This document shows, in pieces, positions 13,960-37,610 of a DNA stretch of 64,000 bases. The DNA is taken from contig CAMPOT010000001.1 in the NCBI GenBank assembly GCA_946892665.1, positions 1,860,001 through 1,924,000 on the forward strand, written 5' to 3'. Made by a program: the position numbers and the translations under genes. The DNA is from Chryseobacterium sp. Marseille-Q5410. Lineage in GTDB: Bacteria > Bacteroidota > Bacteroidia > Flavobacteriales > Weeksellaceae. The notes under the pieces are model-generated. The model searched no databases. It saw only the letters and a program-made list of their open reading frames with translations, and was not told where the DNA came from. Numbering within the stretch: the stretch's first letter is position 1; each line of letters starts with the position of its first letter.

Positions 13960-15408
13960 ATGTTAGTACAGCAGCAAAGAGTTCAGTTTAGTGCCTATTC
14001 TGATTTATATAACCTGATCATTCCAAAGGAGAATATTCTTCGTAAAATTAACGAGCTGATTGACTTCTCCTTCATTTATGATGAACTTTTGAACAAATAT
14101 TGTTTAAATAATGGTCGTAATGCCGAAAGTCCAATCCGCATGTTTAAATATCTTTTGCTTAAAAGTATTTATACCCTTTCTGATGTGGACGTTGTGGAGC
14201 GTTCGCGGTTCGATATGTCGTTCAAATATTTTTTGGAAATGGCTCCGGAAGAGGACGTGATCAATCCCAGTTCCCTCACTAAATTTAGAAAACTGCGTTT
14301 GAAGGACACCGATTTATTGAATTTGCTGATAGGAAAAACCGTCGCAATAGCTATTGACAAAGGCATCATAAAAAGCAAATCCATCATTGTGGATGCCACG
14401 CATACCTTGTCCCGATCAAACCCTTTTTCGGCGCTGGAAGTGCTTAGGGAACGTTCCAAGTTACTTCGCAAAACAGTTTATCAGTTTGACGAAGAGTTTA
14501 AGTCTAAAATGCCATCCAAGAATGTTGAAAATGATTTGAACAAAGAATTAGCCTACTGCAAAGAGCTTGAAAAATCTATTGAAAACGAGCCCTCCCTAAG
14601 TTCGATTCCGGCAGTAAAGGAGAAACTGAACCTGTTAAAGGAAACAGCCAATGACACTGGCGAACAGTTGGTTTTTTCAAAAGATACGGATGCCAAAACA
14701 GGACACAAGTCGGCTGACAGTCCATTTTTTGGTTACAAGACACACCTGGCAATGAGTGAGGAACGCATTATTACGGCGGCGGTGGTTACTTCGGGCGAAA
14801 AAGGAGACGGCCCAGAACTGCCCAAACTCTTAAAAATCAGCCAGGAAAACGGAATGGACGTGGAGGCGATCATTGGTGATGCCGCTTATTCCGGGAAAGA
14901 AAATCTGAAAATTGCCCGTGATCAGAGCATTAAAATCGTAGCAAAACTGAATCCTTCTATTACACAGGGATTTAGAAAAGATCAAGACCGGTTTGACTAT
15001 AACAAAGATGCTGACAGATTTGTTTGTCCCGCAGGACATCTGGCGACAAGAAAAGCCCGCCAAAACAAAAAGAATGTTGGCAAAAACCAAGTGGATGTAT
15101 ATTATTTTGATATAGAAAAATGCAGATTATGCCCCATGAGAGAAGGCTGTTACAAAGATGGAGCAAAATCTAAGACCTATTCTGTCTCCATAAAATCAGA
15201 AATGCATCAGGATCAAATGGATTTTCAGGAAAGCGATTATTACAGGGAGAAATCGAAGCAACGGTATAAGATTGAGGCGAAAAACAGCGAACTTAAAAAC
15301 GCCCACGGATACGGCAAAGCAACATCCTATGGCCTAGAAAATATGCAGATGCAGGGAGCGATGGCTATTTTCGCAGTCAATTTGAAGAGAATTCTGAAAT
15401 TAATCTGA
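13960..15408 (+). CDS. IS1182-family transposase
   Basis: A 482-aa DDE transposase. The N-terminal DUF772-like region (IRMFKYLLLKSIYTLSD) is followed by a catalytic core with the first Asp in SIIVDATHT, the second in AIIGDAAYSGKEN and the Glu in the YKIEAKNSELKNAHG helix. The HKSADSPFFGYKTHLA stretch and the Cys cluster CRLCPMREGC are also typical of IS1182/IS5-like enzymes. It starts 91 bp after the left terminal repeat region and is uninterrupted, so it is probably active. Confidence 0.93.
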   Translation: MLVQQQRVQFSAYSDLYNLIIPKENILRKINELIDFSFIYDELLNKYCLNNGRNAESPIRMFKYLLLKSIYTLSDVDVVERSRFDMSFKYFLEMAPEEDVINPSSLTKFRKLRLKDTDLLNLLIGKTVAIAIDKGIIKSKSIIVDATHTLSRSNPFSALEVLRERSKLLRKTVYQFDEEFKSKMPSKNVENDLNKELAYCKELEKSIENEPSLSSIPAVKEKLNLLKETANDTGEQLVFSKDTDAKTGHKSADSPFFGYKTHLAMSEERIITAAVVTSGEKGDGPELPKLLKISQENGMDVEAIIGDAAYSGKENLKIARDQSIKIVAKLNPSITQGFRKDQDRFDYNKDADRFVCPAGHLATRKARQNKKNVGKNQVDVYYFDIEKCRLCPMREGCYKDGAKSKTYSVSIKSEMHQDQMDFQESDYYREKSKQRYKIEAKNSELKNAHGYGKATSYGLENMQMQGAMAIFAVNLKRILKLI

Positions 15409-18648: not shown

Positions 18649-19622
18649 TTATTTTTCATAAACTTTCGGATTTGCGCAAGTTGGCAATTTTTCGCCTTTT
18701 GAAAATGCAACGACATTTTCTGCAGCTAATTTTGCCATTCCACCTCTAGCCTCAATTGTTGCGGAACCAATATGCGGAAGCACACAAACATTCGGAAGTT
18801 GAAGCAAAGGATTTGCTTGCTCCATCGGCTCTGGGTTGGTAACATCTAATCCGGCTCCCCAGATTTGTCCGGAATTTAAAGCATTAAATAAATCTATTTC
18901 ATTTTGAAAACCGCCTCTCGCTGTGTTAATATAAATGGCATTTTTCTTCATTTTTTCAAATACCGATTTGTTGAATAAATCAGCTTGTTCAACTGTGTAA
19001 TTTGCATGAACGGTTATGACATCAGACTTTTCTATCAATTCATCAAACGAAACATATTCTGCAGAAAGCTTTTCCTCGACTTCTCTATTTTGACTTCGAT
19101 TGTGATAAAGGATATTCATATCGAAAGCTTTTTTACATTTTTCTGCCATCTCAAAACCAATTCTGCCTAAACCAAAAACGCCTAAAGTTTTTCCGTATAA
19201 TTCCTGGCCAAGCTCTTCCAAAGCATCAAAATCTTTCCAATTTCCAGATTTCACTTTGTCGATATTATAACTCGCTTTGCGGGAAACCATTTGCATTAAT
19301 AGAAAAGCAACATCAGAAGTTGCTCTGCTCAAAACATCTGGCGTATTTCCAACTGGTATATTTCGGCGGGTAGCTTCTTCAATATCCACATTATCAAAAC
19401 CTACTGAAAATAACGAGATTGCTTTAACATTCGCGCATTGTTCAAAAAAAATTTGTCAAATTTATTATTTCCAACATTTAAGATGATATCGGCTTTTTTA
19501 CAATATTCTAACCATTCTTCGTGTGTTTCAATTTTATTTTCAGGTGAAATAATTTGTAAATTTTGTTGGTTTAAAATTTCTAAACCGATTTGTGGAATTC
19601 TTTTATTGATGAACACTTTCAT
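18649..19622 (-). pseudogene. D-isomer-specific 2-hydroxyacid dehydrogenase, frameshifted
   Basis: NAD-dependent dehydrogenase of the glyoxylate/hydroxypyruvate reductase type. The N-terminal part (MKVFINKRIPQIGLEIL, start 19622) runs to a TAG near 19389. The rest is in another frame and carries the Rossmann motif GVFGLGRIGFEMA, catalytic Arg in NTARGG, Glu in TNPEPM and His in LPHIGSAT. The frames join at an A8 run (plus strand 19444-19451): one base more, or two fewer, gives FDKFF(F)EQCANVKAISLFSVGFDNVD and a protein of about 324 aa, the normal family length. It is either a real slippage mutation or a homopolymer sequencing error. Confidence 0.85.
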
Positions 19623-19712
19623 ATTGAAGATTGTCATTTAAATTTTAATATTTAAAGAAAAAATCTGCGTCAAATACCATTCCGAAATCATTAAAATTAC
19701 CACAAAAACTGC

Positions 19713-19805
19713 TATATTTGCCGATGAAAAGGGTGAATCGTGTGAAAATCACGAGCTGTCGCGCAACCGTAATTTAGAAATAAGAAGTCGGATCCCCAAA
19801 AACTT
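19713..19805 (+). promoter_or_regulatory. Cobalamin (B12) riboswitch
   Basis: The segment matches the conserved core of cobalamin riboswitches in order: TTGCC, AAAAGGGTGAAT, the GTGAAAATCAC hairpin, the B12 box AGCTGTCGCGCAACCGTAA (19750s-19770s) and AAGTCGGAT with following C residues. It is on the plus strand, 60-70 bp before an acyl-CoA thioesterase gene. A hairpin built from ATTTGAA and TTCAAAT follows at about 19813-19848 and may be the expression platform. A TATATTTG promoter-like box (19713-19720) overlaps the 5' border, so the exact transcript start is uncertain. Confidence 0.82.
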
Positions 19806-19867
19806 TCGCGATTTGAAGTAGAAAAAATTTCTATTCATTTCAAATATTAATTTTTAACCCCACAGAA

Positions 19868-20257
19868 ATGAATTACGAATCAAAAATTAAAGATTCCGAA
19901 ACCCATGTTTTCAAAGTAGTATTTCCGAACATTACGAATCATCACAACACCATGTTTGGTGGAACGGTGATGGAAATGATGGACGAAGTTGCGTTTATGA
20001 CCGCTACAAGATTTGCAAGAAAGTCCTTTGTAACGGTAAGTTGCGACCGAATTGATTTTAAAAAACCGATTCCTGCAGATACGCTGGTTGAACTTATCGG
20101 TAAGGTAAAATATGTCGGCAACTCAAGTTTGAAAGTGAATGTAGAAGTTTTCGTTGAAGAAATGTATGAAGAAAAGAGAGAGAAAGCGGTTTCAGGCGAT
20201 TTCACGTTGGTTGCTTTGGATGAGAATAAAAAACCGGTCAGGATTTTTAACAGTTAA
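19868..20257 (+). CDS. Acyl-CoA thioesterase (YciA-type hotdog protein)
   Basis: A 129-aa single hotdog domain protein that hydrolyses acyl-CoA to free acid and CoA. The family motif is MFGGTVMEMMDEVAFMTATR, with the catalytic Asp in MMDEVA; FVTVSCDRIDFKKPI and the GDFTLVALDE strand complete the fold. It is monocistronic between a B12 riboswitch and a terminator, so expression is probably linked to cobalamin level. A role in relieving CoA esters of the methylmalonyl/propionyl branch would fit but is inference. Confidence 0.92.
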   Translation: MNYESKIKDSETHVFKVVFPNITNHHNTMFGGTVMEMMDEVAFMTATRFARKSFVTVSCDRIDFKKPIPADTLVELIGKVKYVGNSSLKVNVEVFVEEMYEEKREKAVSGDFTLVALDENKKPVRIFNS

Positions 20258-20276: not shown

Positions 20277-20309
20277 AAAAAATTCCACCTCAAAAGTGGA
20301 ATTTTTATT
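20277..20309. terminator. Bidirectional terminator after the thioesterase gene
   Basis: AAAATTCCAC and GTGGAATTTT form a 10-bp stem with a 7-nt loop and T/A runs on both sides. It serves the thioesterase gene and the convergent small gene ending at 20321. Confidence 0.9.
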
Positions 20310-33240: not shown

Positions 33241-33271
33241 TTTTGAATTTTGAATTAAACCCTTATCTTTG
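33241..33271 (+). promoter_or_regulatory. Promoter of the SRP RNA
   Basis: TTTTG at 33241-33245 and TATCTTTG at 33264-33271, with an 18-bp spacer, match the Bacteroidetes -33/-7 consensus. The box ends 4 bp before the predicted RNA 5' end, which calibrates other promoters in the window. Confidence 0.8.
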
Positions 33272-33275
33272 CAAC

Positions 33276-33368
33276 GGCAAGTCCTAAACAACCAGCTCCT
33301 GTGAATCCTCCAGGGTGGGAACGCAGCAAAGGTAAACGGTTGTAGCGGTGTGATTTAGGTAGCTTGCC
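33276..33368 (+). ncRNA. ffs: Signal recognition particle RNA, small bacterial type (4.5S)
   Basis: A 93-nt hairpin RNA. The ends GGCAAGTCCTAAA and TTTAGGTAGCTTGCC pair to form the long stem. The apical domain carries the SRP54/Ffh-binding core CCAGGGTGGGAACGCAGCAA. A run of nine T follows directly and acts with the stem as terminator. With Ffh it targets membrane proteins to FtsY and SecYEG. Confidence 0.93.
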
Positions 33369-33376
33369 ATTTTTTT

Positions 33377-37433: not shown

Positions 37434-37502
37434 TTTTTAATTTTTAATAAATGTATGGTAATTTTGGGGGATTTTCAAAATAAAAACGACAGAACTTCTA
37501 GC

Positions 37503-37564
37503 CCTGATGGAAATGGAAATCCTTCCGCCGACAAGGTCGGCGGAAGATTGCAATGGACAGCAGG
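37503..37564. repeat. Long imperfect palindrome with perfect GC-rich core
   Basis: CTTCCGCCGAC and GTCGGCGGAAG (37522-37532 and 37536-37546) form a perfect 11-bp stem with an AAG loop. Imperfect arms extend it outward to CCTG (37503) and CAGG (37564). The GC content stands out against AT-rich surroundings and there is no T tract, so it is not a plain terminator. The layout resembles the short dispersed palindromic repeats I recall from Chryseobacterium-group genomes, but only one copy is in the window. Confidence 0.75.
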
Positions 37565-37610
37565 TGGAGTCTTGGAAAATATAGAAAACCTTGATGCTCC
37601 TAAAAAGAAA

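Follow-up and report, generated by a model that had tools for sequence, protein, structure and literature searches.

In the window (the whole 64,000-nucleotide stretch of DNA that was analyzed), a compact cobalamin riboswitch almost certainly controls the gene for an acyl-CoA thioesterase, which we will call TE. Orthologs of TE are found behind cobalamin riboswitches across the phylum, and TE is very likely a recurrent member of the B12-starvation regulon. When B12-dependent mutases stall, TE probably relieves the accumulation of their blocked substrates, propionyl-CoA and/or methylmalonyl-CoA.

The genome that carries the window comprises 2.69 Mb in five contigs, and its TE is 99% identical to TE from Kaistella haifensis (residues 1-127). 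The plus-strand unit consists of a promoter-like box, TATATTTG, at 19713-19720; a leader of about 140 nt, of which 19726-19841 resembles a compact cobalamin riboswitch; the 129-residue open reading frame of TE (19868-20257); and a terminator-like hairpin at 20278-20306. The box was recognized by its sequence directly 5' of the leader, and it resembles the Bacteroidota promoter box TAnnTTTG. A scan for sigma-70-type promoters gave one candidate, which is not above the shuffled sequences (mean 2.4). The pattern scan for terminators gave two candidates in 801 bases, versus 0.7 in shuffles. TE is the sole plus-strand gene up to this hairpin, as the original prediction stated. The unit is flanked by a divergent gene similar to 2-hydroxyacid dehydrogenases (PF02826) on one side and by a small convergent open reading frame on the other. 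The dehydrogenase-like gene (18649-19637, minus strand) seems to be split across two frames: a 246-residue frame matches PF02826, and the preceding 78-residue frame has no Pfam match. Elsewhere on the plus strand of the window are an IS-type transposase (13960-15408; PF13751, PF05598, and PF01609) and two RNAs that were found with Rfam, which are the Bacteroidales small SRP RNA (33268-33373) and the Flavo-1 RNA of unknown function (37496-37571).

To compare leaders, we read the DNA upstream of TE at 80 loci with related TEs and at loci in 197 genomes from the family to which the window belongs (sample f1; the named relatives are Weeksellaceae). Loci and genomes are labeled L### and G###, respectively. 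After removing duplicates, we had 35 distinct leaders with the core, and 34 of these could be aligned whole (alignment A1). A covariance model, R1, was built from the 34 leaders and from L097, which is from a distant member of the Bacteroidia. The window scores 113 bits with R1, a score obtained with the window itself among the building sequences.

The aptamer (19726-19797) comprises P3 (19731-19733/19795-19797), P4 (19738-19742/19750-19754), P5 (19757-19758/19764-19765), and P6 (19767-19769/19789-19791), along with the loop L5 (CGCG, 19760-19763). It is followed by P13 (19802-19805/19816-19819), whose loop L13 (CGCG, 19807-19810) could kiss L5. The core blocks have the order, strand, and place described originally. 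Across A1, the pairs of P3, P4, P5, P6, P13, and L5-L13 are formed in 99.4% of cells, and once the partners are slid, pairing falls below 50%. Five pairs changed on both sides; none of 500 shuffles matched this number or the covariation score, but because the rows of A1 are related, the shuffles overstate the significance. Two-sided changes are found in P3, P4, and P6, and P5 is invariant. For instance, the outer pair of P3 is GC in 19 leaders, AU in 13, CG in 1, and UA in 1, and the middle pair of P6 is CG in 17 and UA in 17. The number of pair types was not above shuffles: 499 of 500 shuffles were as high for the aptamer with P13, and 298 of 500 for the competing hairpin (described below). 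The L5-L13 kissing pairs are possible in all 34 leaders and are nearly invariant, so they are compatible with kissing and covariation says nothing about them. Another 33 distinct leaders carry the same core and expression platform 5' of the orthologous gene; given this and the two-sided changes, which no shuffle reached, the core is not due to chance. Judging from these sequences, we classify the core of P3, P4, P5, and P6 as a cobalamin riboswitch in the broad sense, with a predicted ligand.

The standard models of Rfam largely miss this form. With gathering thresholds, there were no cobalamin riboswitch matches in the window. A permissive search gave RF01689 (AdoCbl-II) at 19715-19802 on the plus strand, with 31.8 bits (E = 3.8e-5; gathering threshold 36.5), and the leader is the top match to RF01689 genome-wide (E = 1.6e-5). 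RF00174 (Cobalamin; gathering threshold 31.5 bits) does not match the window, and its one riboswitch in the genome is 5' of a TonB-dependent receptor. The check with Rfam that was originally proposed is therefore negative at gathering thresholds and positive, below the cut-off, in a permissive search; taken as a refuting test at default settings, it is misleading, because Rfam 15 misses the compact form. We also scanned 20 loci at gathering thresholds, 19 of which carry either a riboswitch of the window's kind (by R1) or larger forms, and the only cobalamin match was L044 (37.1 bits). Thus, the curated thresholds of Rfam 15 miss this compact variant in most of the loci that we scanned. We did not file the leader under RF01689, as its 31.8 bits are below the gathering threshold, which its relative L044 does reach, although the leader is predicted to behave like a member of that family. 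R1 has matches in at least 147 of the 197 family genomes, with other cobalamin riboswitches included in this count.

In other genera, larger forms are found at orthologous TE genes: RF00174 matches L153 (113.2 bits), and RF01482 matches L155 and L156. As placed by R1, the strands of P6 are 19 nt apart in the window versus 79 nt in L153, where the placement is uncertain. The leader shares its core blocks, P3-P6, the potential for L5-L13 kissing, and its position 5' of a B12-related gene with the cobalamin clan CL00101 (RF01689, RF00174, and RF01482). It differs from the clan in its sub-gathering score for RF01689, in being below detection by RF00174, in its small P6 insert (19 nt), and in its own platform, which is predicted to mask the start codon.

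The linkage to TE, which the original prediction suggested looking for in relatives, is widespread in the family. A riboswitch lies directly 5' of TE (under 500 nt, same strand, by R1) in at least 105 of the 130 family genomes that contain TE; this is a lower bound because it considers the best 140 of the R1 matches listed. (The TE set has 131 matches, down to E = 5.5e-44, and the next match has E = 6e-24.) The R1 match lies 39-316 nt upstream of TE, with a median of 93 nt. With operons included, linkage rises to at least 111 of 130. The six added cases are G129, with a riboswitch directly upstream by RF00174; G042 and G018, with the order riboswitch-nrdB-TE-nrdA (G042 by R1 alone); G071 and G097, with riboswitch-metE-TE (G097 by RF00174); and G107, in which the riboswitch is 8 kb upstream and the operon is unsure. 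The other 19 family genomes were classified as unlinked, 6 by scanning about 6 kb upstream of TE and 13 through the genome search with R1 only. The six scans found no riboswitch (G054, G001, G034, G014, G033, and G031; the assembly of G031 is 56% complete). Some of the names of neighboring genes were assigned by eye from the ends of open reading frames. In G100, G133, and G157, the matches to TE have an internal in-frame stop and might be broken copies. At L158 (G099 C6), there are two riboswitch matches about 2 kb apart, one 5' of metE and the other 5' of a 523-residue open reading frame.

MetE and NrdAB are B12-independent substitutes for other enzymes. Outside most of the family, TE is found in riboswitch operons together with metE, nrdAB, btuB, or cobT. 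Among 33 genomes from further loci, RF00174 was sought in all and found in 28, and TE was linked to a riboswitch in 14 (G201 and G206 by R1 alone), with unlinked status judged from RF00174 positions only. The arrangements include riboswitch-metE-TE (L164-L167 from Pedobacter and L168 from Spirosoma), the same with a CWC-like open reading frame before TE (L169 and L170), riboswitch-nrdB-nrdA-TE (L171, L172, and L173), and riboswitch-TonB receptor-TE (L174). L175 is a longer riboswitch operon with a DUF6580 gene before TE, and L176 has the order riboswitch-DUF6580-CWC-TE-surface protein-CobT, followed by further genes.

We also sampled 296 genomes from the phylum. TE was found in 29 of these (E <= 1e-30), including 22 from outside the family, and TE was linked in 12 of the 22 (L177, L178, L179, L180, L181, L182, L184, L195-L198, and L193). 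In L179, metE is about 240 nt from TE, and L193 is linked through L209, with the order riboswitch-metE-nrdB-nrdA-TE. No riboswitch was found at TE in the other 10 (eight from the genus g34, plus L183 and L194). The riboswitches of L180, L079/L176, L085, and L087 were identified with R1 alone. Each of these genomes shows few cobalamin riboswitches, which by itself makes linkage at such a rate appear implausible at random. In a tree of 104 TEs, the riboswitch contexts are scattered, and the starred branches force at least four changes for the metE context. However, gains and losses cannot be reliably counted on this tree, as it rests on 128 columns, 44 of its 101 inner branches are open, and long branches meet. 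The original description of TE as an unusual target holds, but TE is not a one-off: it recurs across the phylum in several types of operon. Similarly, TE stands alone behind the riboswitch in most of the family, but elsewhere it is in operons.

Some of these operons contain uncharacterized genes. At L079, a DUF6580 membrane protein (583-1161) and a cysteine-rich CWC/DUF5522 protein (1148-1501) are encoded in the riboswitch operon, and L087 is similar. These two families are candidates for B12-related functions. Open reading frames with PAS domains adjoin TE in L170 (10-534, minus strand) and L182 (905-1525, minus strand).

A survey of cobalamin regulons lists synthesis, B12 transport, cobalt transport, and isozymes as the target classes (PMC3766115), and TE fits none of the classes listed there. 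The word "thioesterase" does not occur in the main text of that survey, whose set for this phylum is limited to Bacteroidaceae. TE resembles the isozymes under riboswitch control in that survey (metE and nrdAB/nrdD) in having the same family of riboswitch and, in several genomes, the same operon. Unlike them, TE does not stand in for a B12 enzyme but would clear a substrate that has backed up. Our literature search, which covered titles and the openings of abstracts of openly accessible papers, found no published linkage of a cobalamin riboswitch to this thioesterase, which does not establish priority.

What does TE do? It matches PF03061 (4HBT) with 61.2 bits (cut-off 20.6; E = 1.2e-16). A structure model built from 26 sequences has a pLDDT of 92.1, and its top matches by Foldseek are 2eis from Thermus thermophilus (47% identity, rmsd 1.2) and the acyl-CoA hydrolase 5egl from Staphylococcus aureus. 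N24, D39, and T56 are invariant in the 26 sequences and align, with an offset to 5egl, with Asn28, Asp43, and Thr60, which are the positions mutated in S. aureus entries. The presumed catalytic Asp is D39 in all 26 sequences, and 102 of 104 TEs have an Asp there. The profile, the predicted fold, and this Asp place TE among the 4HBT (hotdog) thioesterases. Although TE has the same fold as the YciA/ACOT-type hotdog thioesterases (PDB 3bjk, 2eis, and 5egl) and retains the Asn, Asp, and Thr that were mutated in the S. aureus structures, it differs from them in being under riboswitch control and in scoring below the cut-off of the NCBIfam equivalog for YciA (NF007970; 49.9 bits versus 162). We therefore rejected the identification of TE as YciA. 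Against nine 4HBT matches, the genome contains just two cobalamin riboswitches, one 5' of TE and the other 5' of the TonB receptor, and we rejected a chance linkage to any hotdog gene on these numbers.

The original prediction proposed that TE releases CoA when the B12-dependent methylmalonyl-CoA mutase stalls. The genomic context fits this. B12-dependent mutases (PF01642) are found in 135 of 137 genomes with riboswitch-linked TE, including the window's own, versus 38 of 48 genomes with unlinked TE (pooled Fisher p = 2.8e-5, not corrected for kinship). The linked genomes with a mutase are 110 of 111 from the family, 13 of 14 from further loci, and 12 of 12 from the phylum sample; the corresponding numbers for unlinked TE are 14 of 19, 15 of 19, and 9 of 10. 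No PF01642 mutase was found in two linked genomes, G071 and G229. This counts against the proposal, and it shows that a mutase is not a strict requirement, so we rejected a strict dependence of linkage on the mutase. Also counting against the proposal, 9 of the 10 phylum-sample genomes in which no riboswitch was found at TE do have a mutase, and among the loci we examined, TE was never beside mutase genes.

The methylcitrate cycle provides another line of evidence. prpB (TIGR02317, above the cut-off) is found in 20 of the 197 family genomes; in the window's own genome, the best score is 94.7 bits, below the cut-off. Fifteen of the 20 have a same-strand cobalamin riboswitch roughly 300-440 nt upstream of prpB (L222-L225, L227-L232, and L234-L238; 54.9-61.1 bits with R1, and above gathering with RF00174). 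In L230, for example, the riboswitch is at 1478-1661 and prpB begins at 1959. All 15 genomes also carry a mutase and a TE directly behind a riboswitch, hence both prp and TE are present. The five prpB genomes without such a riboswitch are G079 and G069, which have a mutase, and G007, G015, and G023, in which none was found. Both of the operons that we read (L241 and L242) have the order prpB-prpC-prpD-mmsA-acyl-CoA dehydrogenase, where mmsA encodes methylmalonate-semialdehyde dehydrogenase. Since 15 of 20 prpB genes are under cobalamin riboswitches, disposal of propionyl-CoA appears to be a target of B12 starvation. Within the family, these sequences indicate that the B12-independent route for propionyl-CoA is under control of B12 riboswitches where the B12-dependent route exists. 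Propionyl-CoA is thus the most likely point of pressure, and a role for TE as a relief valve becomes more probable.

In this mechanism, TE would hydrolyze the acyl-CoAs that stalled B12-dependent mutases cannot process, most likely propionyl-CoA and/or methylmalonyl-CoA; CoA would be recovered, and the acid would leave the cell. YciA is a related hydrolase. In engineered Pseudomonas putida, it raised propionate about 10-fold by converting propionyl-CoA to propionate (PMC9399607), and in Methylorubrum extorquens, methylmalonate was seen only in traces, equally with the empty vector (PMC9529712). As far as these reports describe, this makes propionyl-CoA the likelier substrate of TE.

Two other roles are each unlikely. 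TE might be a housekeeping thioesterase, for instance in fatty-acid balance, whose control by B12 is unrelated to mutase substrates and reflects, say, a shortage of methionine or S-adenosylmethionine. TE is found in genomes without a mutase, and riboswitch-free TEs lie beside ribBA-like or mutS-like genes (assigned by eye), as this would predict; but the enrichment of the mutase among linked genomes and the prpBCD operons under cobalamin riboswitches in the same family argue against it. Alternatively, TE might act in the acquisition or salvage of corrinoids and be regulated like a B12-uptake gene. Its operons with btuB, DUF6580, surface proteins, and cobT are consistent with this, but linked TEs are mostly alone or with metE or nrdAB, and TE is also found in genomes in which no cobalamin riboswitch was found, such as Sphingobacterium. 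Also, we know of no step in corrinoid salvage that requires a thioesterase.

If relief of stalled mutases is the role of TE, then a missing part of the response of Bacteroidetes to B12 shortage has been named, and a generically annotated thioesterase gains a testable role, linked with the riboswitch-controlled prpBCD operons of the same family. Within Bacteroidetes, 0.6% are cobamide makers and 96% have cobamide-dependent enzymes, according to one survey (PMC6461909). In the broader picture, the B12-starvation program of the phylum would replace MetH with MetE and the class II ribonucleotide reductase with class I NrdAB, and some relatives would turn on the methylcitrate cycle. We propose tentatively, with chances near even, that these are arms of one riboswitch-controlled response, in which TE, where the methylcitrate cycle is absent, dumps the mutase-blocked acyl-CoA as free acid. 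Bacteria would then have a programmed equivalent of the overflow of methylmalonate and propionate in human B12 deficiency.

The expression platform predicts that TE is made when B12 is scarce. A competing hairpin (19817-19824/19828-19835) shares 19817-19819 with P13; because the 3' strand of P13 overlaps the 5' strand of the hairpin, the two are mutually exclusive. P13 covaries: its outer pair is AU in 20 leaders, GC in 10, GU in 2, and other in 2. The hairpin also covaries (UA 16, CG 10, UG 7; GC 29, AU 4); its consensus is AAGYAGAAA with UUUCURUU, and its mean pair probability in the folded free RNA of the window is 0.78. Its 3' strand runs into RUUCAUUUC, which is complementary to the start region GAAAUGAAY. 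In the window, the anti-start strand AUUCAUUUC (19833-19841) is complementary to GAAAUGAAU (19865-19873), which includes the start codon, over 9 perfect base pairs. All 8 leaders whose second codon is AAC have G at the partner base; where that base is A, the codon is AAT (15) or GAT (1). G is also found with AAT (9), and one row is gapped. In seven leaders (L039, L043, L047, L068, L072, L073, and L080), the longest match to the start region is short or at another place, which means that not every leader has the start helix. By computation, the aligned leaders share a conserved two-state platform.

To mimic the bound state, we enforced P13 in folding calculations. In the window, the probability of the start helix rises from 0.22 to 0.93, and the probability that the AUG is unpaired falls from 0.25-0.49 to 0.01-0.02, although the free RNA still pairs part of the AUG. 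Of 33 leaders, 27 showed a drop in AUG accessibility of more than 0.02, five stayed about equal, and one (L039) showed a rise; the mean fell from 0.28 to 0.09. (L068 was excluded as it cannot form P13.) These models predict, with high confidence, that the leader is an OFF switch. Ligand binding would let L5 kiss L13 and hold P13; the competing hairpin would open, AUUCAUUUC would be freed, and the AUG would be masked, so that this compact, cobalamin-repressed riboswitch would allow translation of TE only under B12 scarcity. A repressing corrinoid riboswitch of metE in Priestia megaterium is described as working in a similar way (PMC10653944): P13 is held by the kissing loop, and when unbound, the 3' side of P13 forms an alternative stem. 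The output differs, as it is a terminator there and, by prediction, the start codon here.

Activating corrinoid riboswitches, such as that of cobT in Alkalihalobacillus halodurans, do exist (PMC10653944), but an ON switch is very improbable here: in 27 of 33 leaders, the AUG becomes masked once P13 is enforced, and the neighbors of TE are starvation genes (metE, nrdAB, and btuB). That the riboswitch is a decayed orphan without function is the least credible reading, despite its score below the Rfam cut-off and its loss in some relatives, and we rejected it given the near-invariant core, the covarying platform, and the linkage in the family. Such a loss is seen in Epilithonimonas hungarica and E. 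mollis (L049 and L054), where the aptamer is gone and part of the platform, UUUCUAUUCAUUUC, is retained.
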